Virus record (IMG/VR): IMGVR_UViG_3300034374_006160
Span: 1-36,473 of that record
Direction: 5' to 3' (one strand)
Source of the DNA: a virus
Length of the DNA: 36,473 nucleotides
Positions 12,262 through 36,452 of the stretch are shown piece after piece. The translations under genes and the position numbers were made by a program. Position 1 is the first letter of the stretch. Every line of letters starts with the position of its first letter. A model generated the notes under the pieces. That model searched no databases. It was not told the origin of the DNA and saw nothing but the letters and a program-made list of their open reading frames with translations.

Positions 12262-12817
12262 CTGCTGTTGCGATCTTACCCCGCATCCAGAGGACAAGCT
12301 CACCTGGACGGGAACAAGGGCTGCGGGTAAGCGTTACCAACTTATTCGTGACTCTTGTCATGTTGATTTCATAGAAGTCATGATCCACACTTCGACGGAA
12401 GTGGAGAGTGCTACTGTTCGGTTCTTTACTAGCGCTGAACCTGATGCTGGTACTCCAGACGGAGACGCTGACGAGAATGTTTGGCAGTTAACAGTCGGAA
12501 TGGCTGTTGGCAGCACGGCGTACACCCCGGAGTGCTTTGCTGGAATGTACTTCCGCAACGGTGTATTTGCTGAGATCGTATCCCCGGACAATAATGTCGA
12601 AGTAATCATCAACATCGTTTACTACGACAGGGCAAAATACACCCCAGCATTTCCTGAGCGGCCTTACGAGCGTCGAGTTCGTCTGTGGAACTGCTACAAC
12701 GACACGCCGTATGGTGACAACTTTGATGGCGGGTATCAGGGCGACGAATACTCTGATACTTCTACTGGTAACACGACTCCTGGCGAGATGCCGTCCACGC
12801 CGATTGGTGACATTTAA
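12245..12817 (+). CDS. Unrecognised small structural-block protein
   Basis: The 190-aa product begins at a GTG overlapping the adaptor gene by 17 bases, with GAGGGG just upstream. It opens with a Cys cluster (GDTNCCCDLTPHPED), is beta-rich through residues 25-130 (FIEVMIHTSTEVESATVRFF, VEVIINIVYYDRAKY) and ends in a Gly/Asp/Thr-rich, probably flexible tail (YGDNFDGGYQGDEYSD). A jelly-roll-like fold is conceivable. Its place between adaptor and nozzle-like genes suggests a neck or head-decoration component, but no family is recognised. Its TAA overlaps the next ATG (TAATG). Confidence 0.6.
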   Translation: MAGDTNCCCDLTPHPEDKLTWTGTRAAGKRYQLIRDSCHVDFIEVMIHTSTEVESATVRFFTSAEPDAGTPDGDADENVWQLTVGMAVGSTAYTPECFAGMYFRNGVFAEIVSPDNNVEVIINIVYYDRAKYTPAFPERPYERRVRLWNCYNDTPYGDNFDGGYQGDEYSDTSTGNTTPGEMPSTPIGDI

Positions 12818-15800
12818 TGCCTAACCCACGCCTCCGCATCGACCAACTCCCGATGCACCGCAGGGCATCGGCTCACGGGGCAGGGGAGGGTGTTGCCTAC
12901 GAACGCCGAGAGGTTGACCCCGATGCAGAGGAACTTTCTCGCCGCACGGGATCGACTCGCCAAGCACGGTTTAGCACTGCGCTTGGCTTTGTCGCAGAGC
13001 AAGAGGGTGCGCGTGTAGTTATCGACAACGAGTTCGACCTGACGGGCAACTGGTCGATTGCCTTCAGTGCTAATGTCGGAGATATCCTCGACACGACCGC
13101 CAGCGAATACTGGACGCTTGTGTTTGCCGGTGCAACTTCTTCGGCTGACGCGGATAACTCCATCCATATCTACCTGGATCGTAGCGGTTCGGACTACCAG
13201 ATCAACCTAGTTGTTACGGATAACAGCAGCGGTACCTACGCGGCGACCACCCCGTCTCAACTGACCGTCACTCCTGGAGATGATGTAGACTTTCTGATTA
13301 CTCGGTCGGGCAACACGATTACCCTGAATGTTGACACCTCCAGTGCTACGGTCGATGTGTCCGCTGCAACCCTGACGGGTATGGATGAGTGTCAGGTAGA
13401 ACTGCTGGGTAGCCACAAGGCAACCAACAAGGGCAAGGGCACTGCGCCCGTCCTCGACAACTTCCACATCTTCGGATCGGTTGTCACTACTGCTGTCTAC
13501 GGCGACCGAAGCCCTGGGTCGAGCTTTAGCATTCTCCCCTCTGACATTGGCGGCACGGCGTTCAGCCCCGCCAGCGCCAGTTACAATGTCTACCTCCATC
13601 CGTCGCCCCCGCAGCTACTCGGCAGCGCGGTAAACTTTAGCGGTTTTGGCGGCGCAGTTCGCGTACCGTTCCGCTCGATCTTTGAGCGTTACTTCCAGAC
13701 GCAAACCGAGGAGGTTGGCTCAAAGACTTTTGCGTTCCGTGTAGCTGGAACGGTCGAGTTCCTCGGTCTCACCAGTACGATCATCGACTTTGGATCTGAT
13801 ACCCCGCTGGCCTACCTTCGGCTGGATGCTGGTGTTGCCAAGTTCAAGTACGGTGATGTGGAAGTCAACAGCGCCCAGACTCTCACCAAGGGCAGTAGCT
13901 ACGAGATTTTCTGCGGGGTTGACGGCACGAATGTATTCATCTCGGTGGACGGCGAGGCTGTTGTCACCAGTGCCATCAGCGAGGTTCCGCGCCTTGAGCT
14001 TGAGCGCATCCCCGATCTGTACATTGGTAACGACGAAGATCCGACTGCGGACAAACACTACCACGGATCGCTGACCACCTTCCAGTTCTACGACTACGCG
14101 GCCAAAACTAGCTCTACTACGGCAGCCGCGCCTGTTGTTGATCTGGACTTTTCCGCAGACACGCTGCGGGACAAGGGGCCAAACCGCGTGGCGCTGGAGC
14201 AGATTTCCCATGCCACGACCGAAGGCCAGCCGCTCTACACGGATGGCCCTCTTGATGACCAAGACTTCCAAGCCGTGCAGCAGGAGGTCGTGCTTGGCCC
14301 CTCTGCGGTCGGATACACGGGCAAGTACGCCGCCCCCATCACATCAGACGCATCGAGTGTCCGTGCTGGCGACAGGGCGTACATCCACAGCGGCGACTAT
14401 GTTCATGTCCTGAACTCGGAGTTGTCGCAAATCCGACCGCTTGGCATCCCAGAGCCTGGGTCGGAAGTATCTTGTCGTAATGTTGGCGCTGGGGCGCTGG
14501 ATGGTGTGTACCAATACGGCTACCGCTACCAGTCCCAAGATGGAACTTACGGGCCGATGAAGCGCCTGAAGCCCCTGACCGCATTTTCCAACACTGGAGT
14601 GCTGGTGGGTTCGGGCGATGCTGCCGACGAGAACCGAGAGCTTGGTGAGTCCTACGGTAAGACCGACGAGTCTAGCGGTAGCCAAGAGTACTTCTCCATC
14701 ACCGACACGGCGGACGCAATCCACGGAGACATCGTCAGCGGCAGTAACGAGGATCTTAGTGTCGAGTCCTTCTTGGCCTTCCCCGACTTTGAAGACCTTG
14801 AGGAAACCGTATTTGACCGAGGTGTAACTGGCGACTTTACGGATGTCAACAGCTTTGGCATCCAGAGCGACACGGAGATCGACATTGACCCCAACAGCGA
14901 CTTCGCGCTGCAATGCTCCTTTAAGCTCGACATTAGCAACCTCAACGAAAACACCCTTGGCGAAAACAACCAGGGCATCTTCTCCCTTGGAACGCAGTCA
15001 GGTGGAGGCAAGACGCGCTCGTTCATGCTGTTCCTCAGCATCGACAGCGCCTACGCCACCAGTGCGCCTCGCATGGTTGCCGCTCGCGCAGTTGGGGATA
15101 AAGACAGTCGCTACAAGTACCTCATCTTCAACAACTCTGGCACTGAGGGGGATGACAGTAGCCTTTGGGTAGATGGAACCGAGTACACGGTCACGGCAGT
15201 CCGCGACGGCGACGATCTGATTGTCAATGTTTGGAACGGATCGACCTGGACGGAGTTTAGCGGCGGCGAGTTGGTCGGGTTCTTTGAAGGTTACAACGCA
15301 CCTACCCGCGTGTATGCCTTTAACGCATTCGGTGTAAAGACCGACTTTGAGCAGATCGCGGCGCTTCCTGCCACGGGTTGGAGTAACGGAACCTACGGCA
15401 CAAAAACTTATGGTACAGGGGCGTCTGGCAGAGAGGCCCGAAGAATCCACAACATGGACAGGGACGCTACCTTCTTCCACGCCCGTGCGTGGTCGAGGGC
15501 ATGGCCCACCGCAACTCTGCAAGCGGAAGCCAACAAGCGTTTTGCTGCGGTAGACGGTGCGCTGACCGACCGAGTTAAGTCTGATGTCGGCGTATTTGAC
15601 CAAGACCCGTCCGCAAATCCCAAGCAGTTCTTTGACAAGGCTGCTACGGTTTATTGGAAAACCTTTAAACAGGACGAGGATGATGGAAGTGGCACTGCTA
15701 GTGGGGACAAAAACCCTCCCAGCGCTGCCACGACTCAGGTAAAGGGCAGCCCCACCGAATACGACGGTGTAGTAATGACTGACAGCGGTATCCAGGATGT

Positions 15801-17832
15801 CGAGGCCGCCCAGTACAGGATCTACGCATCTAGCGTAAACAACGGCTCGATCATCGTCAGTACCAACGACGCATCGTTCATCATCGCCAAGAAGCCCTGG
15901 GATGACACCTCTCCGGGTACGGTGACGCAGTTGCTTGGCCCTGGTGGTGTGGACATCGACCCGAAGAACTTTAACTGGTTCACTACGACGGTCAACTTCA
16001 GCGCCGTCAGCGCCAGTGCCTTGCGACTGACCGTGAATAACCTGTATGTGAACGGCAACAAGTTCTTTGATACGCCACTTAACAGGTACGACACTGACAT
16101 CGTAATCAACACGCAGAACCTTGTCTGCTACCTTGGCGGCTTTAACTACAGCCCTGCGGCTGTCAACGACGGCGAAGTAAACATCGGTGAGTTCCGCGTC
16201 TGGAAAACCGACCGCTACGATGACACCCTGACTGAGGCGTTCGACTACCTGACAGGGCGTGTCGCGGAATCCGAAGTGAGCAATATGTACATCTATGCTC
16301 GCTTCCAGCCCTCGGATCTCGACAGCGGGAACAACTACAACTTGCACCCGCTCTGCTTCCTCAACAGCGAAGACTACATCAGCACTAACGCAGAGCTTAT
16401 CGACACCCGCGCAGGGGAAGGCGGTTCCGAAACCGACCCTGCTCCGGCCATCGGCATCCCCAAGCCGCCGTACCCTTGGATCACCGCAGTGCAAGTCTTC
16501 CGCACCGAGGGGTTCATCGTTCAGGATCAAGACAGCAAGCTGGAGATCGAGCAAGCGCTGGAGTTGGTGCAGGGCCAACCCGCGTATTTCCTCGCTCGCA
16601 TCCCTGCTGGGGACACCTCCTACATCGACATCGTTCCCGACGATACCCTTGGTTACGAAGCCCCCGAGGGCGGCGAAGGGTTTACGGTAGAGAAGCCCAA
16701 CGGCGTGTGCATCTGGCAGAACCAACTGGCTCTGTTCCGGGGCAACACCCTCTACTTCTCTGAGCGCGGTCCCTACGGTTGGGAGTCGTTCCCGTCGTGG
16801 GCATCCTACGCAGTGCCGACCTCCGGCAGCGGCTCCGACATCGTTGGCGCTGTTGAAATCGGGTCGAGCTTGTTGGTCTGCGGCAAGTCGTGGGCGACCA
16901 TGTTGAGCGGCGCACCGTCGCAGCCCCGCCCGTTCGACCTTGGCCCCGGCACTGGAGCGCAATCTGCCCGGTGCATTGCGGTTCACGGCGGCATCGCATA
17001 CGCCCTGGGGAACGGCAAACTGTGGCGCGTCGGCCAAGATGGTGGCTACGACGATCAGTTCAGCCAGCCCGTCCACGACATCCTGCCCACCCAGGGCCGT
17101 GTCGCGGTGGTCGGTGCGCTGTCGAGCCTGTTGGTCATTGACGAGCAGAGCGACCAAGTGCTGCGCTTCCACTTCCCGACCCAGGCGTGGTCAATCGAGG
17201 AGCGTGATGCCCTCGGTGTTGGCGACCAGGGTTCGGACTACTTAGTTGTCCACCAAGTCGGCTCGTACTCCAAGGGTAGCGCGGTTTACGGCGACGATGT
17301 TGCGGCCAACACGGTGGCGACTTCCACTGGTACGAAGGCCAGCAACAGCACAATCACCCTTATCCCGGACGACACCAACCCGAACGCGGTGGCCGGAACC
17401 CGAGTGCTTGTTGTGGATGACAGTGGCAACGAGGCCGTTGGCGACTTCACTTCATACTCTAGCCCGACCGTCACCGTGACCGCTGACCTTTCAGGGCTGT
17501 CCGGTAACTGCACCATCTACTACGGTGTTGGTCAAACGGGCATGATGGTGGACACCGGGTGGTTCGCGGTTGGCTCGCGCAACAGCGACCTGTCCCTGTT
17601 CACCGATGTAACTTCCGGCAGCTTCGACTACTCGTTGGCCGGAACCGACACCCCTGGCGACCGTTCAAACCGCACAGGGCTGTCATTCACGGATCTCGGC
17701 ACTGCCTACGAGTCTACGGGCACGGGCGGTCGGGGTCGATATGTTCGCGCTGTTGTGCGTAACCGTACTGCACAGAGCGCATCCCTTGGACACGCAGAGG
17801 TTGAGGTGAAAGTTGAGCAGCAAGCGTCATAG
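12817..17832 (+). CDS. Giant tail nozzle-like protein with lectin-like insertions
   Basis: The 1671-aa product is about twice the size of T7 gp12-type nozzle proteins. The C-terminal third resembles them: KPNGVCIWQNQLALFRGN and LYFSERGPYGWESFP (about residues 1294-1327), then repeated propeller-like strands (VEIGSSLLVCGKSWATMLSG, RVAVVGALSSLLVIDEQSD) to about 1480. An immunoglobulin-like module (GVYQYGYRYQSQDGTYGPMK, about 565) also fits. Between and before these lie up to four beta-sandwich segments resembling concanavalin A/LamG domains, at about 65-215, 255-425, 685-845 and 985-1145; each pairs a strand such as WSIAFSANVGD or FALQCSFKLDIS with terms like LYIGNDED or YLGGFNY. These could contact envelope glycans. 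The last 110 residues are another beta module. Placement after adaptor genes supports a tail role. The domain calls are by eye. Confidence 0.65.
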   Translation: MPNPRLRIDQLPMHRRASAHGAGEGVAYERREVDPDAEELSRRTGSTRQARFSTALGFVAEQEGARVVIDNEFDLTGNWSIAFSANVGDILDTTASEYWTLVFAGATSSADADNSIHIYLDRSGSDYQINLVVTDNSSGTYAATTPSQLTVTPGDDVDFLITRSGNTITLNVDTSSATVDVSAATLTGMDECQVELLGSHKATNKGKGTAPVLDNFHIFGSVVTTAVYGDRSPGSSFSILPSDIGGTAFSPASASYNVYLHPSPPQLLGSAVNFSGFGGAVRVPFRSIFERYFQTQTEEVGSKTFAFRVAGTVEFLGLTSTIIDFGSDTPLAYLRLDAGVAKFKYGDVEVNSAQTLTKGSSYEIFCGVDGTNVFISVDGEAVVTSAISEVPRLELERIPDLYIGNDEDPTADKHYHGSLTTFQFYDYAAKTSSTTAAAPVVDLDFSADTLRDKGPNRVALEQISHATTEGQPLYTDGPLDDQDFQAVQQEVVLGPSAVGYTGKYAAPITSDASSVRAGDRAYIHSGDYVHVLNSELSQIRPLGIPEPGSEVSCRNVGAGALDGVYQYGYRYQSQDGTYGPMKRLKPLTAFSNTGVLVGSGDAADENRELGESYGKTDESSGSQEYFSITDTADAIHGDIVSGSNEDLSVESFLAFPDFEDLEETVFDRGVTGDFTDVNSFGIQSDTEIDIDPNSDFALQCSFKLDISNLNENTLGENNQGIFSLGTQSGGGKTRSFMLFLSIDSAYATSAPRMVAARAVGDKDSRYKYLIFNNSGTEGDDSSLWVDGTEYTVTAVRDGDDLIVNVWNGSTWTEFSGGELVGFFEGYNAPTRVYAFNAFGVKTDFEQIAALPATGWSNGTYGTKTYGTGASGREARRIHNMDRDATFFHARAWSRAWPTATLQAEANKRFAAVDGALTDRVKSDVGVFDQDPSANPKQFFDKAATVYWKTFKQDEDDGSGTASGDKNPPSAATTQVKGSPTEYDGVVMTDSGIQDVEAAQYRIYASSVNNGSIIVSTNDASFIIAKKPWDDTSPGTVTQLLGPGGVDIDPKNFNWFTTTVNFSAVSASALRLTVNNLYVNGNKFFDTPLNRYDTDIVINTQNLVCYLGGFNYSPAAVNDGEVNIGEFRVWKTDRYDDTLTEAFDYLTGRVAESEVSNMYIYARFQPSDLDSGNNYNLHPLCFLNSEDYISTNAELIDTRAGEGGSETDPAPAIGIPKPPYPWITAVQVFRTEGFIVQDQDSKLEIEQALELVQGQPAYFLARIPAGDTSYIDIVPDDTLGYEAPEGGEGFTVEKPNGVCIWQNQLALFRGNTLYFSERGPYGWESFPSWASYAVPTSGSGSDIVGAVEIGSSLLVCGKSWATMLSGAPSQPRPFDLGPGTGAQSARCIAVHGGIAYALGNGKLWRVGQDGGYDDQFSQPVHDILPTQGRVAVVGALSSLLVIDEQSDQVLRFHFPTQAWSIEERDALGVGDQGSDYLVVHQVGSYSKGSAVYGDDVAANTVATSTGTKASNSTITLIPDDTNPNAVAGTRVLVVDDSGNEAVGDFTSYSSPTVTVTADLSGLSGNCTIYYGVGQTGMMVDTGWFAVGSRNSDLSLFTDVTSGSFDYSLAGTDTPGDRSNRTGLSFTDLGTAYESTGTGGRGRYVRAVVRNRTAQSASLGHAEVEVKVEQQAS

Positions 17833-20953: not shown

Positions 20954-23900
20954 ATGTCAAACTGGCTAGAACGAGGAATCAACGCCACCATCGGCCTTCC
21001 GTACCAGCTAATCACCAGGGCTTGGTACGCGATGGAAGATGAGGACACGGAGCTATTTAGTGCCCAAGGCATCCTGGCCCCGGAGCTTATCCCTGTGCTT
21101 GGCGCGTTCATGGGCGACCACTCCAGGGCTAAGTACGCCTCCGACATCGCTCTAGACATCTACGACAAGCGGCTTTCAGGAACTCAGGGATTTCTCCTTG
21201 ATACCTTGCTAGACCCAAGTACCTACCTGACCTTTGGTACGAGTGGTGCTTTCAAAGGGCTAGGTTCAGCGGCAAGAAACCTGAACCGCGCTGGTGGTAA
21301 AAGTGCGCGTGTGCGAAACCTTATGGTCAAGCACAAGGCCGCAGGGAGTACCTATGACGAGTTCGTTGAAGAACTGAAGACCTTGCCAGAGGCCAAGACC
21401 GACCGCAGGATCAAGAAGGTCATCAACATGAACCGTGGCGGTTTTGGTACTACGAAGCAAGCCGAGAAGATCCGCGCTAGGCGGTTGAAGGATGCTGGTA
21501 AAGAAGTTCCCACGGATAAGAAGGTAACCCTGAAAGATGTTATCGAGCAGGGCGAAGTCGAAGAGCTTGCTCTCCAGTTCCCTTTCCTAGCATCCAGCCG
21601 AGTTGTTATTGGCGCTGGTAAGGTCGGTAAGTTTCTTGATGCCGCAACCCTGGGTCGGCTGAACAAGCAGCGCGGGTGGTTCTCAAACTTTGGCAGGGCT
21701 TCTTTGGCCCCTGCTAAGTTTGTGAACGACTACTTTGCCTCACCTATCTTGAAGTCCACAGTCATCCCGGCGATGGATGCCCTGTCGGGTAATCGGGCTT
21801 CGTGGATGGGTGCGTTTCTTTCAGGGCTTACCAAGAAGGTAGACCCTGCGGTCAAAACGACTCTACAAGGGGCATCCAAAGCCTACGAAAACTTTGTTTC
21901 CGAAAGTTCAAAGTTCTTCCAAGGCGATTTCACCTTCCAGCGGGCGGCAAAGGCGGCAAACGCTCTGCACCCCGAATCTCTAGTTCCTACTACAGTTCTA
22001 TTTAGCCCTGGGAAAAAGAAGTACCAATCGAAGAAGTTAGCGGATCTCTTGCTTGTTGAAGAGTCCTTTATTCTTGAGGAACTAGCTAGCGGCAAAACTG
22101 TTGATGACATTCTAGAAGAGCAGTTTAGCTTTCGGTATGTTGACGAGACCGCGAAGTTCAGAATGCAAGCTAAGGCAGAAGGTGTTGATCTTACAGATCC
22201 AGATGCCGTAGCTAAGTTTGACCAAAAACTCCGTAAGATCTTCATTAACGACAGGGATCTAGGCAGTATTCCCGCTCTAGATTACGGAAATATGTCCCGA
22301 GTAGATGCCTACATTGCGGCTAGAAAGTCGGGAGTTAAGCCATCAGAGCTTCGCAAACTTGTCAAGAAGCACAACGGCAATATCCAAAGGGCGTTTGAAG
22401 ATATCTATGGTGCGTTGAACCCGGCTATTGATGCCAACTCTGATATCTACAAGGCTTTTGAAAAAGGTCAGTTGGATATCGGTATTGCCGCACAACTTCC
22501 CAAATCTTACGAGAATGCCCCTGGCTCTGTGAGGTTGGGCTGGCTGAAAGGTAAGGAGATCCGAGATTACCTTACTAGGAAGTTTGATCCACTAGGCGGC
22601 AAGAGCGTCAACAAGGCCATCAATGAGATGGAGTTTGAAGGTCAACGCCGGTTGGATTCTGCCTCCAGAGCCGTGTTCCAAGATACGCGAGAGATCCACC
22701 GGGACATGGAATCTTTGGTGGCTGAGTTGGCTCGCATCGGTAACACTTCCGAAATCCGCACATTTGACGATCTCGACAAAGTGCTTGGTATGCACCAACA
22801 GGCTACTCCCCAGGTTGAGGAGGTGTTGGCCGTACTTCGTAGACTTGAAACTTCTGGAACGAAAGCCGCTAAAACTGAGCTAGCGAACCTTGAAGAGCTA
22901 GCCCAGCGCATGACCGGCGCGGCGGAGTTGGCAAAGATCGCAAGCCCTAAGATGGAGGATGCTGCCAGAGAGCTTGCTGAACTAGCACAAGAACTTCGGA
23001 CTGCAATCTACGACAAGGATCTGGTTGCAGGAAAGATTAGACTTACAGACACTTTTGGTAGTCGCCTAGAGTCTGTTGGCGAGTTTATCCGTACTAGCAA
23101 CCACGAAGCTCTGGAGAAGATGTTTGGTATTAGCGACCAGACACCGAAAGCCAAGCAGCTTCTAGATAAACTTCTGTCCCAGAACGCTAAGTTGGCTCGT
23201 TACGCCAGCGGGTTGGGCGCAGACGATCAACTTGCCTACTTCCCTCGACTGTTCGACAAGGATCTGCGAAAGTCCTTGAACCGACTCTTCGACAGGGCAG
23301 AGGCTGCGGGAATGGACAACCAGCTAGTCAAAAGCCTGAAGCGTCGTGTTGAAGCTCGCAACCTCACAGTGCAAGAGTACAACGAACTTCTTATTGAGGC
23401 TCGTAAAGTAGGTGTTGGCGACGAGGCGTTTGAAGAGACTTCCAAGTTTCTCCGCATTCAGCGCCCTGTGGCTCCTGAAGCACTCAAGGCTGCAAAGTCC
23501 ATCCTGGGTAGGAAGATCATGAACGATCAACCTTACCTGTCGGATCTTATGGAGGCAGCCAACAAAGCCCAAGATCCTAAGACTAAGAAGTTGTTGGAGA
23601 AAGCTGTGCGAGATGCCGCAGCGCCAATGAATGAGTCTTGGCTCTCTGCCTTCGCACACCGATCCAACCTAGCGAAGCGACAGTTGGTAGCGGAAGACTA
23701 CATCGACGGCATTCTCCGTGAGGGCAACAAACACGCGGATTCCAGACTAACCCTAATGTCTGGCACGGTCAACAAGGTACACCGAGTTGGTGACGATACG
23801 GTCATCGAGCTTCAAGTTGCCGATGGGGATATGCGTCTGTTGAATGTCTCCGAGATGGGCCGCTCTGGGATGGGTGTCCGCAATATGGGTAAAGTCAGCA

Positions 23901-25408
23901 AGGGTAAAACCATAGGCCAACAGGCTGTGCGACACCAAGTGCGCGGAACTTTCCCCAAGGGCAGCCAGAGCCTGGAGAACATCCGTAAGGGTGAGAGCAT
24001 CATCCTGGGTGACGCGGGTCTGACCAGCCGCCTGTTGGACAACACGATTCCAGCATCTCAGGAGATGTCGGAGTTCTGGAAGTTCTACGACCGAACGAAC
24101 GCCCTCTACAAGTCTACGCAGACGGTGTTTAACCCTGCGTTCTTCATTCGTAACACCCTTACCAACTTCTTCCAAACCAGGGCAGCCGGGGGCAGTATTC
24201 GTAACTTCGGTGCAGCACAACTTGTCGCTGCTCGGATGCTTGGAAACCTCCCTGACAACACTGCAATCGACGGCTCTGGGGTTGTTGGATTCAAAGGTCG
24301 CACCAGGGCGTTGGAGAAGTTGAAGGCCGACGCTACTAACGAAGCCGTCGAAGCTCGCCTTGCCGCCCGTTTCGATGACGCAGATGACCTTGTCCCTATC
24401 TACCAAGTTGGGGACACCCCAATGGGGGAAGATGAACTCCTCAAGTTTTTCGCAGAGCGCGGTCTGTTCAACGACCTGAAGGTTACTGAAGAACTTCGCG
24501 TCGGAGCTATGACTCCTGAAGAGTTTGTAGCTGGTTTGAAGCGAGGCGAGAAGTCGCGCATGGAGGATTTCCGCGACAGTGCATCTGCCGTCGAAATCCA
24601 CAACCGTCTCTCGGCGGCGATGACCCTCATTCTGGATGGTAAGTCCCCAGAGCTTGCTTTGCAGAAAGCCCTGGATGTCCACGGCGATTACTCCAAGCTG
24701 TCGAAGTTTGAGCGTGATGTTGGCCGTCGAGTTGCGGCCTTCTATACCTTCTCCCGTCGAGTGCTTCCACAGATGGCAAAGTCCATCGATAAGGATCCAA
24801 GGATGTTGACGGCCATCAACCGCCTGTCCAACAACTCGGACTGGATTGGTGTTGACCAGTATGGCAACCTCAAGATCGAGCATGATGGTCTGGAGGCTAA
24901 CCTTAGCTCGATTGCACTGCCGGTCGAAGCTGCCGCACTGATCGTCGGAACTATTGACTCGGTTAATAGTTTTGCGGGCCTTGACGAGCAAGCGCCTAGA
25001 GGTTTAGGTCAACCCAGAGGTGTCACCAAGTTGGCTGGCGGTGGTACTGCGGGCCTGTTGATGTCTCTCTTCGGTATGGACCCGAACCGAGAGCCTGGAC
25101 TTGGCTCTGCGGCGGAGTACACAGTGCAAGCTAACACCTTTACTCGGATGGCGATGAAGTACGCCGATGCCGTCTACAACGACAAACCACTGGACGAGAA
25201 CCTTTGGGCAGCCACTTTCCTCCCGGTCAAGATCCGTAAAGACCCAGCCTACCGCCGCAAACAGCGCGTAAAGATTGGCGATGCGCTGCTCCGAGAAATC
25301 AACTTTGAGATCGGTCAAACCAATAACCCCAACAAAATCCGCAAGCTCAAAGAAGAGCAAGCCCGAGTCCTAGAAGCCCGCAACTCGCTGTTGCAGGAAC
25401 TCCGATGA
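20954..25408 (+). CDS. Giant internal virion (ejection) protein, gp16-like
   Basis: The 1484-aa product is the largest helical protein of the window and last of the ejection trio, matching T7 gp16 in place and size (about 1300 aa). Near the start are hydrophobic stretches (IGLPYQLITRAWYAM; FLLDTLLDPSTYLTFGTSG about 75-95) followed by basic helices. The centre is charged and coiled-coil-rich. Around residue 1055 the sequence FNPAFFIRNTLTNFF recalls a motif shared by large phage ejection or polyvalent proteins. Hydrophobic VEAAALIVGTIDSV lies near 1330. No clear lytic transglycosylase glutamate motif was identified, unlike T7 gp16. The ATG follows AGAGG closely. Its TGA overlaps the next ATG (ATGA). 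Confidence 0.7.
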   Translation: MSNWLERGINATIGLPYQLITRAWYAMEDEDTELFSAQGILAPELIPVLGAFMGDHSRAKYASDIALDIYDKRLSGTQGFLLDTLLDPSTYLTFGTSGAFKGLGSAARNLNRAGGKSARVRNLMVKHKAAGSTYDEFVEELKTLPEAKTDRRIKKVINMNRGGFGTTKQAEKIRARRLKDAGKEVPTDKKVTLKDVIEQGEVEELALQFPFLASSRVVIGAGKVGKFLDAATLGRLNKQRGWFSNFGRASLAPAKFVNDYFASPILKSTVIPAMDALSGNRASWMGAFLSGLTKKVDPAVKTTLQGASKAYENFVSESSKFFQGDFTFQRAAKAANALHPESLVPTTVLFSPGKKKYQSKKLADLLLVEESFILEELASGKTVDDILEEQFSFRYVDETAKFRMQAKAEGVDLTDPDAVAKFDQKLRKIFINDRDLGSIPALDYGNMSRVDAYIAARKSGVKPSELRKLVKKHNGNIQRAFEDIYGALNPAIDANSDIYKAFEKGQLDIGIAAQLPKSYENAPGSVRLGWLKGKEIRDYLTRKFDPLGGKSVNKAINEMEFEGQRRLDSASRAVFQDTREIHRDMESLVAELARIGNTSEIRTFDDLDKVLGMHQQATPQVEEVLAVLRRLETSGTKAAKTELANLEELAQRMTGAAELAKIASPKMEDAARELAELAQELRTAIYDKDLVAGKIRLTDTFGSRLESVGEFIRTSNHEALEKMFGISDQTPKAKQLLDKLLSQNAKLARYASGLGADDQLAYFPRLFDKDLRKSLNRLFDRAEAAGMDNQLVKSLKRRVEARNLTVQEYNELLIEARKVGVGDEAFEETSKFLRIQRPVAPEALKAAKSILGRKIMNDQPYLSDLMEAANKAQDPKTKKLLEKAVRDAAAPMNESWLSAFAHRSNLAKRQLVAEDYIDGILREGNKHADSRLTLMSGTVNKVHRVGDDTVIELQVADGDMRLLNVSEMGRSGMGVRNMGKVSKGKTIGQQAVRHQVRGTFPKGSQSLENIRKGESIILGDAGLTSRLLDNTIPASQEMSEFWKFYDRTNALYKSTQTVFNPAFFIRNTLTNFFQTRAAGGSIRNFGAAQLVAARMLGNLPDNTAIDGSGVVGFKGRTRALEKLKADATNEAVEARLAARFDDADDLVPIYQVGDTPMGEDELLKFFAERGLFNDLKVTEELRVGAMTPEEFVAGLKRGEKSRMEDFRDSASAVEIHNRLSAAMTLILDGKSPELALQKALDVHGDYSKLSKFERDVGRRVAAFYTFSRRVLPQMAKSIDKDPRMLTAINRLSNNSDWIGVDQYGNLKIEHDGLEANLSSIALPVEAAALIVGTIDSVNSFAGLDEQAPRGLGQPRGVTKLAGGGTAGLLMSLFGMDPNREPGLGSAAEYTVQANTFTRMAMKYADAVYNDKPLDENLWAATFLPVKIRKDPAYRRKQRVKIGDALLREINFEIGQTNNPNKIRKLKEEQARVLEARNSLLQELR

Positions 25409-31168: not shown

Positions 31169-32869
31169 CTACACATCCGCCCAAGTCTCCCCATGTCCCC
31201 CGTCTGCAACGAAGTCTACTTGGTTGAGTCGGGAGTCAGGGAAGGCAGCGTTGGCCGCCTCTCGCATGATTGTAGCGTACTCGTCGCCCTTGTCCAGTAC
31301 ATCCCCAACAAGCTCGTCGTGGACGCTCAGGATCGGGCGCAACCCCGCCTCCTCACAGGCAACCAGGGCGTGTTTCATCAGCGCAGCCGCCGTCCCCTGC
31401 ACCTCCTGCGACACAGCACTGGTGAGTCGGTCGAGTTCCCACCGCTGGTAGACCCGGCGCGTACCATCCAGGGCACTGGCCGAACTGCTCCCCTTGGTGA
31501 TCTTGCTGACCAGATTCATCCAGTTGTGTAGCTCCGGGTGGGCCTTGCGGTGTTGGTCGATGAACCTCCGTGCCTCGTCAACCGAGGTGTTGATCTGGAG
31601 GGCCAACCGCCCAGCACCCATGCCGTTGAGGATGCCGAAGTTGACAGCCTTGGCCTTGAAGCGTTCGCCGTCTGGAAGGTTGTCGATACTACAACCACTG
31701 GTGGCAGCGGCGGTCGCTGCGTGGGGGTCGGCCCCCTCCGCAAACGCCTGAAGCATCCGCTCGTCATTCGACAGGGCAGCGGCCACCCGCAGTTCCACCT
31801 GTGAAAAGTCCGCCCCGGAGCAACCACCCGACGCGCCCTGGAAGCAACCCCGGAAACGCTTGGCGATCTTGCGCTCTTGGTCGGTCTTGCCCTGCTTGGG
31901 GATCTGCCCCAGGTTCGGCTCGGCGTGGGCGAATCTCCCAGTGCCTGTCCGGGCAGTCTTGATGCCGCCATGGATCAGGCCGTCAGGCTGCACGAACTTG
32001 GGCAGGGTCTGGCAGAAGTCCCTGTCCTTCTTGTTCCACGCCCGGTACATGAGGATGGCCCCGATCAACTCGTCGCCCGTGCGGTCGAAGTGGGGGCGCA
32101 GCACTGTTTGGGTGTTGGTTCCCCTGAACTTGTACCCCTTCGACTGCAAGAACTCCAGCACTTGCTTGGGCGAGTTGAGGTTGCCCGTGAACCCGTGCCG
32201 CTCGATGACTGCCCACGACTCGGCCACCAACGGGCGGATCTCCAGGGCCAACTGATGAAGCCGATCCTCCAACAGACGAACGCCCCGATCCTCCATGCGC
32301 TGCACGGCCCACTCGACCTTGCCTGACAGGGGGTGGTGCGCTCGCTTGTACTTCTCCCACAACTGCGAGGTCACGATGAGGTCATCGGCAAGATACTCCA
32401 AGAGCTTTGGATTCCATCTGTGCAGCCCTGGGGTGAGGAGGTGGATGCTGTTCTGGTTGCCCTTCTTGCCCTTGAGTTCGGGGATGGTGGCGATCTTGGT
32501 CTTGCCGAAGTCACGGGCCAAGTCATCGAGGCTCTTGCGGCGGCGCGTGTCCTGCGTGTAGACCGCGAGCATGGTGTCGCACCACCAATCGACAGGGCGA
32601 ATGTTCATGGCGTGGATGTCGAAGCGGAGGTTGTGACCAACCAGTGCCATGCGCTCCATGATGGGCTTCATCTTCCGCCACTCGGGGTTGCGGCAATCGA
32701 TAAACAACACCGAATCAGTGCCGTGCGGCAACAGCCCCACGATCCACGCCTTGTCCCTCGACATCGGGCCACGAACCTCCAGGCCGTCAGTCTCGGTGTC
32801 GCAGATCCACTCGCCCTGGTGTGCATCGACCAGTTGCTGGAGTTGATCAGCCGTCTCCAGGAATCTCAT
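31169..32869 (-). CDS. Family A DNA polymerase with 3'-5' exonuclease
   Basis: The 566-aa phage replicative polymerase resembles a compact Pol I lacking the 5' nuclease. Exonuclease motifs are ICDTETDGL (Asp24, Glu26), LVGHNLRFDIHA and YLADDLIVT. Polymerase motif A is GADFSQVELR (Asp354), motif B is RFKAKAVNFGILNG (Phe411) and motif C is SVHDELVGD (Asp518). Phe411 corresponds to E. coli Phe762, a position linked in published phage surveys to virulent lifestyles. The motif B residue equivalent to Tyr766 is Asn here. The ATG at 32869 has GGGGAG upstream and overlaps the queE stop (ATGA). It is shorter than T7 gp5 (704 aa). Confidence 0.95.
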   Translation of the reverse strand: MRFLETADQLQQLVDAHQGEWICDTETDGLEVRGPMSRDKAWIVGLLPHGTDSVLFIDCRNPEWRKMKPIMERMALVGHNLRFDIHAMNIRPVDWWCDTMLAVYTQDTRRRKSLDDLARDFGKTKIATIPELKGKKGNQNSIHLLTPGLHRWNPKLLEYLADDLIVTSQLWEKYKRAHHPLSGKVEWAVQRMEDRGVRLLEDRLHQLALEIRPLVAESWAVIERHGFTGNLNSPKQVLEFLQSKGYKFRGTNTQTVLRPHFDRTGDELIGAILMYRAWNKKDRDFCQTLPKFVQPDGLIHGGIKTARTGTGRFAHAEPNLGQIPKQGKTDQERKIAKRFRGCFQGASGGCSGADFSQVELRVAAALSNDERMLQAFAEGADPHAATAAATSGCSIDNLPDGERFKAKAVNFGILNGMGAGRLALQINTSVDEARRFIDQHRKAHPELHNWMNLVSKITKGSSSASALDGTRRVYQRWELDRLTSAVSQEVQGTAAALMKHALVACEEAGLRPILSVHDELVGDVLDKGDEYATIMREAANAAFPDSRLNQVDFVADGGHGETWADV

Positions 32870-33471
32870 CGCACTCCCCACAGTTTATGAGCTTGCACTG
32901 ACAATGCCCAGTCAGGATGTCGTAGGCACAAATCAATACAGGTTTGCACCGCCTCGGGATCTAACTGATCGCCCTTGAAGGCTGGCGAAAGGAACTTGGC
33001 CTCGGCATCCAGGCTAGGTTTCGGGATGCCCTGCCCGACACCACGGACATACCGCAGTTCGTCGGCGTACTGTGCGCGGATAGCGTGTTCCGCCACCTTG
33101 GGCGACACGACCACCCAATCCAGCCCCACAGGAATAAGCATCGTTCCGTTTGTCTCCAGTGCGATCTTGAAGCCATGCTCCTTTAGCAGATTGATGAGCG
33201 ACCTAGTGACTTGCAGCAACGGCTCTCCGCCCGTCAGTACGACCCAACGACATTCCCCTGCCGCAGCCAACACATCTTCCACCAGTGCCTCTTCGGTGTA
33301 AGCCTCTCCGCTGACAAACTCGGTATCGCAGTCGAAGCCACCTGGACTATCAGCCCCGGCCTCAACCCGACACTTCATGTTGCAGCCGCTGAACCTGATG
33401 AACACGGAAGGATGTCCGGCCCTCGCCCCCTCACCTTGCAGCGAGTAGAACACTTCATTTACTACGAGCAT
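32866..33471 (-). CDS. queE: 7-carboxy-7-deazaguanine synthase (radical SAM)
   Basis: QueE converts 6-carboxy-tetrahydropterin to 7-carboxy-7-deazaguanine, the second-last step to preQ0. The 201-aa product has SLQGEG near the start, IRFSGCNMKC and FDCDTEF. The iron-sulfur cysteines are Cys30, Cys34 and Cys48 (CX3CX13C), an enlarged loop compared with the usual radical-SAM CX3CX2C; QueE is known for loop variation here. LTGGEPLL (SAM site) and ALETNGT follow. The ATG at 33471 with GGTGA upstream is preferred over an extra 10 residues to 33501. It overlaps queC by 10 bases. Product goes to QueC. Confidence 0.93.
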   Translation of the reverse strand: MLVVNEVFYSLQGEGARAGHPSVFIRFSGCNMKCRVEAGADSPGGFDCDTEFVSGEAYTEEALVEDVLAAAGECRWVVLTGGEPLLQVTRSLINLLKEHGFKIALETNGTMLIPVGLDWVVVSPKVAEHAIRAQYADELRYVRGVGQGIPKPSLDAEAKFLSPAFKGDQLDPEAVQTCIDLCLRHPDWALSVQAHKLWGVR

Positions 33472-34040
33472 GATTTCACCGCCTTCGCCATATCTTGGCA
33501 AGCTCCGCAGCTACCGCAAGGCAACTCCTTGCCCTCGTAGCATGACCAAGTATCTTCGATGGGAACTTCCAACCGAAGAGCCATCTTGTATACCTCTGCC
33601 TTGGGTAAGTTCTTGAGAGGTGTAACCAGTCGGCACTTGTTGTCCGACCCCAACCGCACCGCCTCCTTCGCTGCTCGCAGGAACTCCATCCGGCAATCAG
33701 GATAGCCAGCAGCGTCATCGTGGTTTACCCCAAGGATAATCCGACCTCCTCCCAGCATAAGCGAATGGGCTGTGGCTAGGCCAATCAACATCAAGTTACG
33801 ACCCGGAACCACAGTGCCTTCTCCGTGGCCCTGGGTGGTAGATATCTTCCGCAAGTGCGGGGCTTGCAAGATAGTCAGACTCACCTTGTAGTGATCCGCC
33901 AACCACTCTGCCGACATCAACTCCTTACGATGTCGCTGCCCGTAGTCCACAGCCAGAGCAGCAGTTGGCCCTCCGCTTTGAACCGTCATCGCAAGAGCCA
34001 CGGTTGAGTCCAGCCCTCCACTAAGTAGCACTAGGTTCAT
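33462..34040 (-). CDS. queC: 7-cyano-7-deazaguanine (preQ0) synthase
   Basis: QueC uses ATP and ammonia to convert the QueE product to preQ0. The 192-aa protein has the PP-loop SGGLDST (residues 7-13), VDYGQRHRKE, VPGRN and HDDAAGYPDCR. Zinc ligands are Cys167, Cys175, Cys178 and Cys181 in CYEGKELPCGSCGACQ. All hallmarks of the family are kept, though it is slightly shorter than the usual 220 aa. The ATG at 34040 has AGGAG 8 bases upstream and overlaps the DpdA stop (ATGA). With DpdA and QueE beside it, preQ0 is expected to go into phage DNA rather than tRNA. No glutamine amidotransferase fusion (Gat-QueC) is present. Confidence 0.94.
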   Translation of the reverse strand: MNLVLLSGGLDSTVALAMTVQSGGPTAALAVDYGQRHRKELMSAEWLADHYKVSLTILQAPHLRKISTTQGHGEGTVVPGRNLMLIGLATAHSLMLGGGRIILGVNHDDAAGYPDCRMEFLRAAKEAVRLGSDNKCRLVTPLKNLPKAEVYKMALRLEVPIEDTWSCYEGKELPCGSCGACQDMAKAVKSCS

Positions 34041-34783
34041 CCGAGTAGCTCCTGGTTTCTTTCTTCGTTGTGCCTTCCAGCCCACCTTGACGCACTGGCG
34101 TGTGCCTCGATGCGGTCTACCAAGACTGCACCTCTGGCTGGCTTGCTCATGTTCTTGAGGTAGCCCTTATCCCATCGGCAATCTAGTCCGATGTTCCTGG
34201 CAACATTAGTGCTGTCGGCGGAAGCCAGCGGCAAATGCGAGAATACGGTTGGGTTAAGCATCCTCAGCCCGTGGAGCTTGCAAGGAGGTTGCCCGTCCGT
34301 GTCTTCGGTTAGCGCGGTCATGGCATCTTCCATGCGATCCCACCAAAGTTTGTTACCGACAACCGAGAACTCCCCCGAACTACCAAGGCAGACGCGAGGC
34401 CATTCGTTTGCCAGCCTAACCAGTCGCTCGTTCGATTCGTGCATATGCCAGACTGGTGCGCCAAGGTGCAGAGGTAAGGGCCACTCGTCCAACAGGGCAT
34501 CGTTCTGCCGCTCGTCGCCGTCGATGACATCAGGGATAACCGCAAAGTCGAACCCTGGATGCCTGTGCCAATGCTTGACGAACTCGTAGTATCCCGACCA
34601 ATCAGGTTGACACCCCTTCTTCCAGACGGAGAAGGCTCCGTTGTCCAGGGCAAACGACTGACAAATCTCAGCAGCTAGTACCATCGTTTGTTGGTACTCG
34701 TAACTGATGAATGCGTGTCTACGAGACAGCACTTCCCTTGCCGCCCTAGCGGGGGAGATGGGTGTTCCGTGGTAATGAATCAT
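34037..34783 (-). CDS. dpdA: DpdA-like DNA 7-deazaguanine transglycosylase
   Basis: This 248-aa protein fits phage DpdA, a relative of tRNA-guanine transglycosylase that exchanges guanine in DNA for a 7-deazaguanine base. Likely active-site positions are ALDNGAFS (Asp47), AVIPDVIDGD (Asp84) and SADSTNVARN (Asp190), with LHGLRMLNP between, the typical order in phage DpdA. It is much shorter than bacterial DpdA, as phage forms are. GGAG lies 8 bases before the ATG, and the start overlaps the upstream stop (ATGA). Direct linkage to queC and queE strongly supports the assignment. Sequence specificity and final base (preQ0 or derivative) are unknown. Confidence 0.83.
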   Translation of the reverse strand: MIHYHGTPISPARAAREVLSRRHAFISYEYQQTMVLAAEICQSFALDNGAFSVWKKGCQPDWSGYYEFVKHWHRHPGFDFAVIPDVIDGDERQNDALLDEWPLPLHLGAPVWHMHESNERLVRLANEWPRVCLGSSGEFSVVGNKLWWDRMEDAMTALTEDTDGQPPCKLHGLRMLNPTVFSHLPLASADSTNVARNIGLDCRWDKGYLKNMSKPARGAVLVDRIEAHASASRWAGRHNEERNQELLG

Positions 34784-35010
34784 TCTTGGTTCTCCAGGAA
34801 AAGTTCAAGCTCGATGTCGTACTCGCAGATCGCACGGGCGAATCGGTTCCACTCATGGATTGCGAACGGCAACTCGGCATAGGGAACCCAGTCGTGCCCG
34901 GCCAAGCGGCGGCGGATGTCCACGACCACTCGGTCTTTGTAGTAGCTCAGGTGTAGCATCCGCTCACCTTTGGAGGTGATGAGGCTAACTTCGCGCTCGG
35001 GAGATTGCAT
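34780..35010 (-). CDS. Small unrecognised protein next to DpdA
   Basis: The frame lies between helicase and DpdA, overlapping both. The ATG at 35010 gives 76 aa; a second ATG at 34959 has a better ribosome site (AGGTGA, 4-5 bases upstream) and gives 59 aa. The protein seems to start with two strands (EVSLITSKGERMLHLSYYKD, then RVVVDIRRR), then a Trp-rich turn (GHDWVPYAELP) and an acidic helix (ICEYDIELELFLENQE). No family is recognised. Its conserved-looking position in the deazaguanine cluster makes an accessory role in modification or a DpdA partner plausible; this is inference. Confidence 0.6.
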   Translation of the reverse strand: MQSPEREVSLITSKGERMLHLSYYKDRVVVDIRRRLAGHDWVPYAELPFAIHEWNRFARAICEYDIELELFLENQE

Positions 35011-36112
35011 GGTTTGCTTTGACAAGTAGGTTGTGAGGTAGGTAAAGGTTACGCCGCGCTCGGGTGAGGGCGACATACATCAATCGTAGTTCGTCAGGTG
35101 CGCCAGCGTCCAGCGCAAATGTGCGGTTATTCCCCCAGGGCAACAGGTAAACATCGTCCGTCTCGTAGCCCTTGGCGGCATGGATCGTGCAGATCGTTAG
35201 CCCTTCGGGGTTCAACTCCGGCACGATGCCGACATTGCGTAGGTCGTGGCGCTTGATGTAGGCATCCACGGAGTACCTTGAAAGCCCCATGATCAGCCCC
35301 TGCTTAGGTGGTTGCTGATTCCACGGGTGCATCTGCGTCAGGTGATTGGCCCTGAAGGTGTCTGCGCTGCGGTCGTAGAACGGCTTGAGGATGCCCGCCG
35401 CTGCATCAGCCGCCGGGTATCCGATGCGGAAACCCTGCGCCAATGTCTCGGTGGACTCGGCTCGCTCCCATGCCGGGGGCAGACGGTCGGCGGGCCAACC
35501 CTTGCCGCCCAGGAAGATCGCTTGCCCTGGGTCGCCAACGGCCAGCACCTTGCCACCGGGTTTCACCAGTGCGAGACAGGCCGCCAACTCCAGGGCAGAG
35601 ACATCCTGCGCCTCATCGACAGCCATGAACTCGTAGCCGTCGAAGTCCTTGAGGGGTGCGCCAACCGCCAACCACCGGGCCAACCCCACGGCAAACGACT
35701 CTTCCCGGCTGACATCATCTTGCCAGATCCAGTCGGGGGGATCGCCCTGGGTTGGTTCCCACAGGTGCAGGAACTCGGCCCGTTGGTTGCGTTTCTTCAG
35801 GGACGGCGCGTCCTTGGTGTACTGCCCGAGGGCATCGTCGGTCTGCGACTCGATGTTGCGCCGCCTGTACGACGGCTTGGTCTTCTTGCCACGACTGAGC
35901 TTCAGGTTGCTCACTTCACGGACATGGGGCCAAGTCATCTTGTACAGGGTCTTGGCGTTCTCGGGGGGAACACCACGCGCAGCCAGGGTGTTGGCCGCGT
36001 CGTTCCCGAAGGTGACGATGCACCACGGTTCGGGCCACGACTCGCAGTCCTTGACCAGCTTGGTGGTCTTACCGCTACCGGGTGGCCCATCCAGGGCTGT
36101 GAGCTTAGGCAA
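34985..36112 (-). CDS. UvrD/Rep-like superfamily 1 DNA helicase
   Basis: The 375-aa compact helicase shows motif I GPPGSGKT (residues 9-16), motif II AVDEAQD (Asp166, Glu167), motif III AVGDPGQAIF, motif IV-like GFRIGYP, motif V TIHAAKGYETDDVYL and motif VI YVALTRARRNL. All ATPase and translocation motifs of SF1A are present in about half the length of UvrD, so accessory domains are missing. The TTG at 36112 overlaps the upstream stop and has GGAGAAG before it; a longer frame to 36175 would run inside the preceding gene and is rejected. It likely unwinds DNA for replication or recombination beside the polymerase. Confidence 0.92.
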   Translation of the reverse strand: MPKLTALDGPPGSGKTTKLVKDCESWPEPWCIVTFGNDAANTLAARGVPPENAKTLYKMTWPHVREVSNLKLSRGKKTKPSYRRRNIESQTDDALGQYTKDAPSLKKRNQRAEFLHLWEPTQGDPPDWIWQDDVSREESFAVGLARWLAVGAPLKDFDGYEFMAVDEAQDVSALELAACLALVKPGGKVLAVGDPGQAIFLGGKGWPADRLPPAWERAESTETLAQGFRIGYPAADAAAGILKPFYDRSADTFRANHLTQMHPWNQQPPKQGLIMGLSRYSVDAYIKRHDLRNVGIVPELNPEGLTICTIHAAKGYETDDVYLLPWGNNRTFALDAGAPDELRLMYVALTRARRNLYLPHNLLVKANHAISRARS

Positions 36113-36452
36113 GTTTCTTCTCCAGGTGATCTTGGTAACGAGCCTCGATGACCGCAACGGTGTCGCTGCACTCAAGGGAGGCCAACGGGATGCGCCAAGT
36201 GTGGCCGTAACTGTCGCGCTTGCGCTTGCCGAAGTCGTTGAGGTAGCTCTGGCACTCAGGGGGTAGCCCCATGAGCAGTTGCTTCACGGCTTGCGGCGCA
36301 GCAACCAGGGTGAACTGCCCGTGCGAGGTGAACAACCAGGGCGAATACGGGTCGGGCTTGTGGTTGTGGATCGGTTGACCGCCGCGCAGCGTTTCCCCGA
36401 AGTACGCAGCATCGGCGGCATCACGGGCGGCGGTCAGGAGCTTTTCCCGCAA
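36105..36452 (-). CDS. Unrecognised protein at the right edge
   Basis: The 115-aa product starts at a TTG (36452) with a consensus-strength GGAGGT 4 bases upstream (36462-36457). The frame stays open to the window edge, so a longer protein is not excluded. It has a helical start (KLLTAARDAADAAYFGE), a mixed centre (SPWLFTSHGQFTLVAAPQ) and a charged segment (SYLNDFGKRKRDSYGHTW) before a C-terminal helix. No family is recognised. Its TAA overlaps the helicase TTG, placing it at the head of the replication block. Confidence 0.68.
   Translation of the reverse strand: MREKLLTAARDAADAAYFGETLRGGQPIHNHKPDPYSPWLFTSHGQFTLVAAPQAVKQLLMGLPPECQSYLNDFGKRKRDSYGHTWRIPLASLECSDTVAVIEARYQDHLEKKLA

Follow-up and report, generated by a model that had tools for sequence, protein, structure and literature searches.

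Does a phage that carries dpdA beside queC and queE replace its guanines in bulk with a 7-deazaguanine, or does it mark its DNA more sparingly and with help from its host? The question is raised by IMG/VR virus record IMGVR_UViG_3300034374_006160, a linear record of 36,473 bases, analysed here as a whole and referred to as the window, whose genes run off both ends and which may be incomplete. An earlier note on this DNA had read three linked genes as the last two steps to preQ0 (7-cyano-7-deazaguanine) plus the DNA transglycosylase DpdA. Family profiles and gene overlaps confirmed that dpdA, queC and queE are real and linked at the positions listed below, and supported this reading. We consider it probable that the three genes, with their short DpdA, form a partial guanine-modification cassette that the host complements, as a variant of the phage 7-deazaguanine system already described. 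The window phage carries no more than the second half of the preQ0 pathway, together with a type of DpdA that is often found alone.

The dpdA-queC-queE locus

The early genes of the window are encoded on the minus strand, and the locus comprises the following genes.

34985 to 36175, minus strand: UvrD-like superfamily 1 (SF1) helicase, upstream of the cassette (PHROG 1967, Pfam UvrD_C/AAA_19)
34780 to 34959, minus strand: small open reading frame (ORF), function unassigned, directly upstream of dpdA (59 residues from the ATG at 34959; the ORF extends to 35076, 98 residues)
34037 to 34783, minus strand: short-type DpdA, TGT-fold (tRNA-guanine transglycosylase) predicted DNA guanine transglycosylase, 248 residues (PHROG 887, alignment with 9g and CAjan, tree, model and fold match)
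33462 to 34040, minus strand: QueC, 7-cyano-7-deazaguanine synthase, 192 residues (PF06508, TIGR00364 over cut-off)
32866 to 33471, minus strand: QueE, 7-carboxy-7-deazaguanine synthase, 201 residues (PHROG 2076, TIGR04508 below cut-off, identity to phage QueEs)
31169 to 32869, minus strand: family-A DNA polymerase with 3'-5' exonuclease domain, ATGA-coupled to queE (PF00476, PF01612, PHROG 17)

The chaining by ATGA overlaps that had been described for this gene run could be read from the DNA at the small ORF/dpdA, dpdA/queC and queE/polA junctions. It does not hold for queC/queE, which share a 10-base overlap other than ATGA, nor for the helicase and the small ORF if the 59-residue start is taken. 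GGAG/AGGAG-like ribosome sites are located ahead of dpdA and queC. The small ORF had no match in Pfam, PHROG or NCBIfam and no convincing relative among phages, and it was not seen in the flanks of the loci scanned.

The assignment of the two precursor enzymes is based on profiles as well as on active-site motifs. QueC matched PF06508 at 5e-50 and TIGR00364 at 158.3 bits, over the cut-off of 150.3, and its alignment revealed an SGGLDS loop of the SGGxDS form as well as four cysteines near the C-terminus. QueE matched PHROG 2076 at 3.5e-34, while its best NCBIfam match, TIGR04508, reached 159.7 bits and stayed below the equivalog cut-off of 240. Its cysteines C30, C34 and C48 are clustered for a [4Fe-4S] centre and a TGGEP motif is present. 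The resulting radical S-adenosylmethionine spacing, CX3CX13C, is common to most related phage QueEs, and the protein shares about 48-59% identity with QueEs from environmental phages, the majority of them found on contigs with folE and queD.

In the pathway that we propose, host FolE and QueD would supply 6-carboxytetrahydropterin, which phage QueE would convert to 7-carboxy-7-deazaguanine (CDG) and phage QueC to preQ0. The short TGT-fold DpdA would then swap guanine for preQ0 in phage DNA that is synthesized with the polymerase and helicase of this gene run. The nitrile, once inserted, may remain as the preQ0 deoxynucleoside (dPreQ0) or become hydrated to 2'-deoxy-7-amido-7-deazaguanine (dADG), probably at low density, and the modified base would modestly alter recognition by host nucleases.

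The short-DpdA clade and its measured members

In the search with phage DpdA families that the earlier note had suggested, the window DpdA matched PHROG 887 with an E value of 2e-71. It is 53-55% identical to phage DpdAs, the closest in the phage collection (about 55%) being those of temperate Salmonella phages and one Vibrio phage, and no preQ0 gene is annotated beside dpdA in the two closest-relative neighbourhoods read. The AlphaFold model of the protein (predicted local distance difference test, pLDDT, 91; predicted template modelling score, pTM, 0.89) found its best solved-structure match in the archaeosine TGT (arcTGT) 1iq8, with a Z of 16.1 and a root mean square deviation (rmsd) of 3.3 over 230 residues. 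Forty-nine of the 50 best solved matches were TGTs (Z 16.1-15.3, 223-230 residues aligned) and the remaining one was a Cap10-CdnD complex entry; Foldseek alone gave TGTs mixed with other barrels, and VIA-align put TGTs on top. Because hhalign detected no sequence match between short DpdA and E. coli TGT, the case for homology between the two is built on fold and on intermediate DpdAs. Sequence profile searches of the PDB with the DpdA alignment, and likewise with that of the QueF-like family described below, returned chance matches only.

Alignment with 9g and CAjan placed D47, H171 and D190 of the window DpdA in invariant columns, corresponding to 9g D72, 9g H196 and the aspartate of the 9g CDSS motif (C214-D215), respectively. 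Histidine 196 has been used to tell DpdA from DpdA2 (PMC6884629), and the lack of it in DpdA2 of the Vibrio phage nt-1 type is not seen here, as H171 aligns with 9g H196 (the alignment does not include nt-1 DpdA2 itself). In the tree the window DpdA was found inside a 32-row short-DpdA clade with full branch support (SH-aLRT 100) and a long stem (branch 2.5), which also holds phages 7-11, MED16, BTP1, Athena1 and Epa33. The DpdAs of 9g, CAjan and the full preQ0 clusters fall outside this clade (Rosebush is not in the tree), and the window DpdA does not group with DpdA1 of the 9g/CAjan type.

The position among phage DpdAs rather than tRNA TGTs also removes the grouping with tRNA enzymes that had been named as an outcome contrary to DNA modification. 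It bears on the alternative that the cassette raises host preQ0 or queuosine to alter host tRNA, with the short DpdA acting on RNA or being no active base exchanger. A rise in tRNA queuosine has been proposed for phages that have preQ0 genes but no DpdA (PMC6884629), and the TGT fold is common to tRNA enzymes. We nevertheless regard this alternative as improbable given the conserved DpdA histidine and the grouping with phage DpdAs, the absence of the bacterial TGT zinc motif CXCXXC from the 248-residue translation, the failure to find QueF on the contig, and the presence of dADG in the DNA of the clade members 7-11 and MED16.

In the characterised members of the clade, modification is at trace level. 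Salmonella phage 7-11 DNA contains 50 dADG per million nucleotides (about 0.02% of G) with dPreQ0 undetected (PMC6884629), while in Pantoea phage MED16 dADG amounts to about 0.13% and dPreQ0 to about 0.001% of G, and restriction enzymes that have G in their recognition sites cut MED16 DNA normally (PMC8306585). In CAjan and Rosebush, which have all four preQ0 genes, 28-32% of G is modified (PMC6884629). The generalization that a phage DpdA accompanied by preQ0 enzymes leads to guanine replacement and a block to restriction was drawn from DpdAs of the 9g, CAjan and Rosebush type; for the 9g/CAjan type, insertion of dPreQ0 or 2'-deoxyarchaeosine (dG+) has been demonstrated, along with the restriction block. 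Since the window DpdA belongs to another clade, with 7-11 and MED16, this part of the earlier prediction cannot be transferred to it by homology, and the trace dADG of these two phages and the normal cutting of MED16 DNA weaken it further.

Compared to CAjan and 9g (Hutinet et al. 2019, PMC6884629), the window likewise combines a TGT-family DpdA with QueC and QueE in a gene run next to polymerase and helicase, and the catalytic aspartate and histidine residues of DpdA are kept. Unlike the window, with its short DpdA of 248 residues and only the last two preQ0 enzymes, these phages carry folE and queD as well as a DpdA of 306-317 residues from another clade, and the QueC of 9g carries a fused Gat domain. 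The solo short DpdAs of 7-11, MED16, BTP1 and Vibrio phage Athena1 belong to the clade of the window enzyme and are 31-55% identical to it over most of their length; no preQ0 gene is annotated near dpdA in these phages, whereas the window adds queC and queE.

Precursor genes near short dpdA and the source of preQ0

Three alignment-based IMG/VR scans together with phage records yielded 160 distinct short-DpdA loci, picked by similarity to three query alignments and hence not a random sample, the flanks of which were scanned with profiles. Single-sequence IMG/VR scans with DpdA and with the polymerase had found no relatives, and the alignment query succeeded. A precursor gene was located near dpdA in 39 of the 160 loci; in every case it shared the strand of dpdA and was less than 1 kb away, mostly directly adjacent. 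The neighbours were yhhQ (20 loci), queD (10), queE (10) and queC (5), while folE was found in none. At least 15 changes of the linkage label are required on a tree of 109 rows, and linkage was therefore gained or lost repeatedly. Short DpdAs appear to have recurrently gained single supply genes.

The order dpdA-queC-queE was observed in four loci, namely the window and three from uncultured IMG/VR phages (L053, L056 and L217), of which L053 and L056 are near-identical. In both of the latter dpdA/queC and queC/queE overlap, as in the window. Unlike the window, all three have a QueE of the CX14CX2C type, and the L053 QueE falls in another QueE clade than that of the window. A single clade of the window, L053 and L217 DpdAs was rejected (approximately unbiased test, AU, p 2e-58). 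The order arose separately elsewhere, and no other observation speaks as strongly for the three genes acting together.

FolE (PF01227), QueD (PF01242) and QueF (PF14489) were not detected in searches of the whole contig with working controls, on a linear contig that may be incomplete, and FolE and QueD profiles that we built ourselves gave nothing on it either; the earlier failure to find FolE and QueD was thus borne out. Among loci with QueE, FolE was present in 0 of 10 short-DpdA loci compared to 70 of 71 comparison clusters and QueD in 0 of 10 compared to 71 of 71, a contrast that is conditional on the presence of QueE because the comparison clusters, which carry another DpdA type, were chosen through their QueE. 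Searching the whole records of the QueE-bearing short-DpdA loci revealed no FolE or QueD, several of these contigs being small and the ends of the window itself open. With neither enzyme in any of the ten loci, host supply rather than a truncated contig is suggested as the reason for the missing FolE and QueD.

A full preQ0 pathway, its folE and queD lying in parts of the genome that were not sequenced, combined with heavy dPreQ0 as in CAjan and Rosebush and strong restriction resistance, would be compatible with the open ends of the contig and with a window QueE that is closest to those of full folE-queD-queE clusters. In such clusters, however, folE and queD are located within a few kb of queE, which in the window is flanked by queC and polA. 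The lack of both enzymes from the QueE-bearing short-DpdA loci, a DpdA that is not of the CAjan type, and the continued strong avoidance of G-containing palindromes described below also make this scenario unlikely.

The inserted base, its final form and restriction pressure

YhhQ is reported to take part in preQ0 transport in E. coli (PMC5372724). The frequent linkage of yhhQ to short dpdA (20 loci) accordingly points to preQ0 as the inserted base, for which the earlier prediction of preQ0 is reasonable. As the final base dADG is at least as well backed by the measured relatives, and the final product could be either dPreQ0 or dADG. The absence of visible Gat-QueC and QueF, from which preQ0 had been deduced, was upheld: the 192-residue QueC contains no Gat domain and the PF14489 search was negative. 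With respect to the pathway to dG+, neither a Gat domain nor QueF was found on the contig, and no search was made for ArcS.

A family of 80-110 residues, absent from the window, was observed near dpdA in 21 short-DpdA loci, mostly directly adjacent, and also occurs in Microcystis phage Mae-JY30 and Rhizobium phage RHph_X2_30. Examples of this QueF-like family, present in 18 further short-DpdA loci, are as follows.

L263, 4756 to 5001: QueF-like family member
L004 (Pseudomonas phage Epa33), 6756 to 7001: QueF-like family member
L276, 4756 to 5001: QueF-like family member

The family has no Pfam match. Its model (pLDDT 96) exhibits the beta-beta-alpha-alpha-beta-beta order of a T-fold, and the best match was the archaeosine synthase QueF-Like (Z 12.9, rmsd 1.6, all 82 residues), about 2 Z units over the next family. 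Compared to Dp-1 QueF, the SLCP cysteine and the HE of FHED (QE in one row) are kept, while there is a gap at the GQPDF aspartate and the ESKSLK motif is missing. Since profile comparison revealed a weak sequence link to QueF, the assignment rests on fold and kept residues. The protein may have preQ0, or the form of it in DNA, as its substrate and work without NADPH. The small window ORF was considered as a member of this family and rejected, the family profile giving no match even at E 10.

Direct insertion of 7-amido-7-deazaguanine (ADG) or CDG by the short DpdA, with QueE and QueC making that earlier product, would account for the dADG of the measured members, in which dPreQ0 was undetected (7-11) or present at about 0.001% of G (MED16) (PMC6884629, PMC8306585), and for the six short-DpdA loci with queE and no queC. 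We still judge it to have little likelihood, as the gene for the preQ0 transporter YhhQ is the commonest precursor-gene neighbour, the QueF-like fold near dpdA in 21 loci points to preQ0 as well, and host QueC could complete the pathway in the queE-only loci.

Palindromic hexamers are about fourfold depleted in the window (116 seen compared to 462 expected under a maximal-order Markov model), with many of the G-containing ones at zero. The tetramers ACGT (0 compared to 89 expected) and AATT (2 compared to 30) are also affected, while non-palindromes occurred at expected counts. This suggests past restriction pressure. The median observed/expected ratio of palindromes was 0.75 in the other short-DpdA loci, 0.68 in full-cluster loci and 0.91 in the remaining loci, so that avoidance is strong in the window and not special to the cassette. 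The pattern suggests that modified guanine has not removed the need to avoid sites, and no heavy long-standing protection is apparent.

Several points weigh against the host-complemented cassette. Pronounced avoidance of G-containing palindromes argues against strong protection by a modified guanine, itself a prediction for the window phage. In 7-11 and MED16 the small amounts of dADG might arise as a by-product, and FolE and QueD could sit on missing sequence. Furthermore, 100 of the 160 short-DpdA loci (18 of which have less than 1 kb of flank on one side) contain neither a precursor gene nor a QueF-like gene nearby, and the precursor link is therefore common and not obligatory.

More tentatively, and with doubt prevailing, short DpdA could represent a distinct, widespread class of phage DNA modification that uses any single precursor step (YhhQ, QueD, QueE or QueC plus QueE), or an 80-residue QueF-like protein altering the inserted nitrile, and that marks few sites per genome instead of replacing guanine in bulk. 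The window locus makes the role of DpdA in solo-DpdA phages and the source of the base directly testable, and it warns against equating every dpdA-queC-queE set with bulk dPreQ0 and restriction resistance.

Further observations concern the other loci and the structural half of the contig. The latter contains two very large ORFs (12817 to 17832, 1671 residues; 20954 to 25408, 1484 residues) with neither a PHROG nor an accepted Pfam match. In the isolate Caulobacter phage DMCA, a 98-residue QueD-like gene (L003, 5705 to 6001; PF01242 at 22.5 bits, cut-off 22.4) is located directly upstream of the short dpdA. Near short dpdA, about 21 loci (e.g. L283, L004 and L027) contain a family resembling C5 cytosine methyltransferases, a name based only on the annotation in Epa33 and on the look of the sequence. 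Twelve comparison phage clusters carry folE, queD, queE and yhhQ with queC undetected (e.g. L101, L117, L118, L126, L136, L144, L145, L151 and L161) and may rely on imported preQ0 or on an intermediate from earlier in the pathway. Lastly, many QueE relatives in metagenome-assembled genomes of Acidobacteriota, Bdellovibrionales and Phycisphaerae (bacterial loci L179-L197) exhibit a CX3CX8C spacing, which, like the CX3CX13C of most related phage QueEs (the window and loci L097-L176), differs from the canonical CX3CX2C as well as from the CX14CX2C type.

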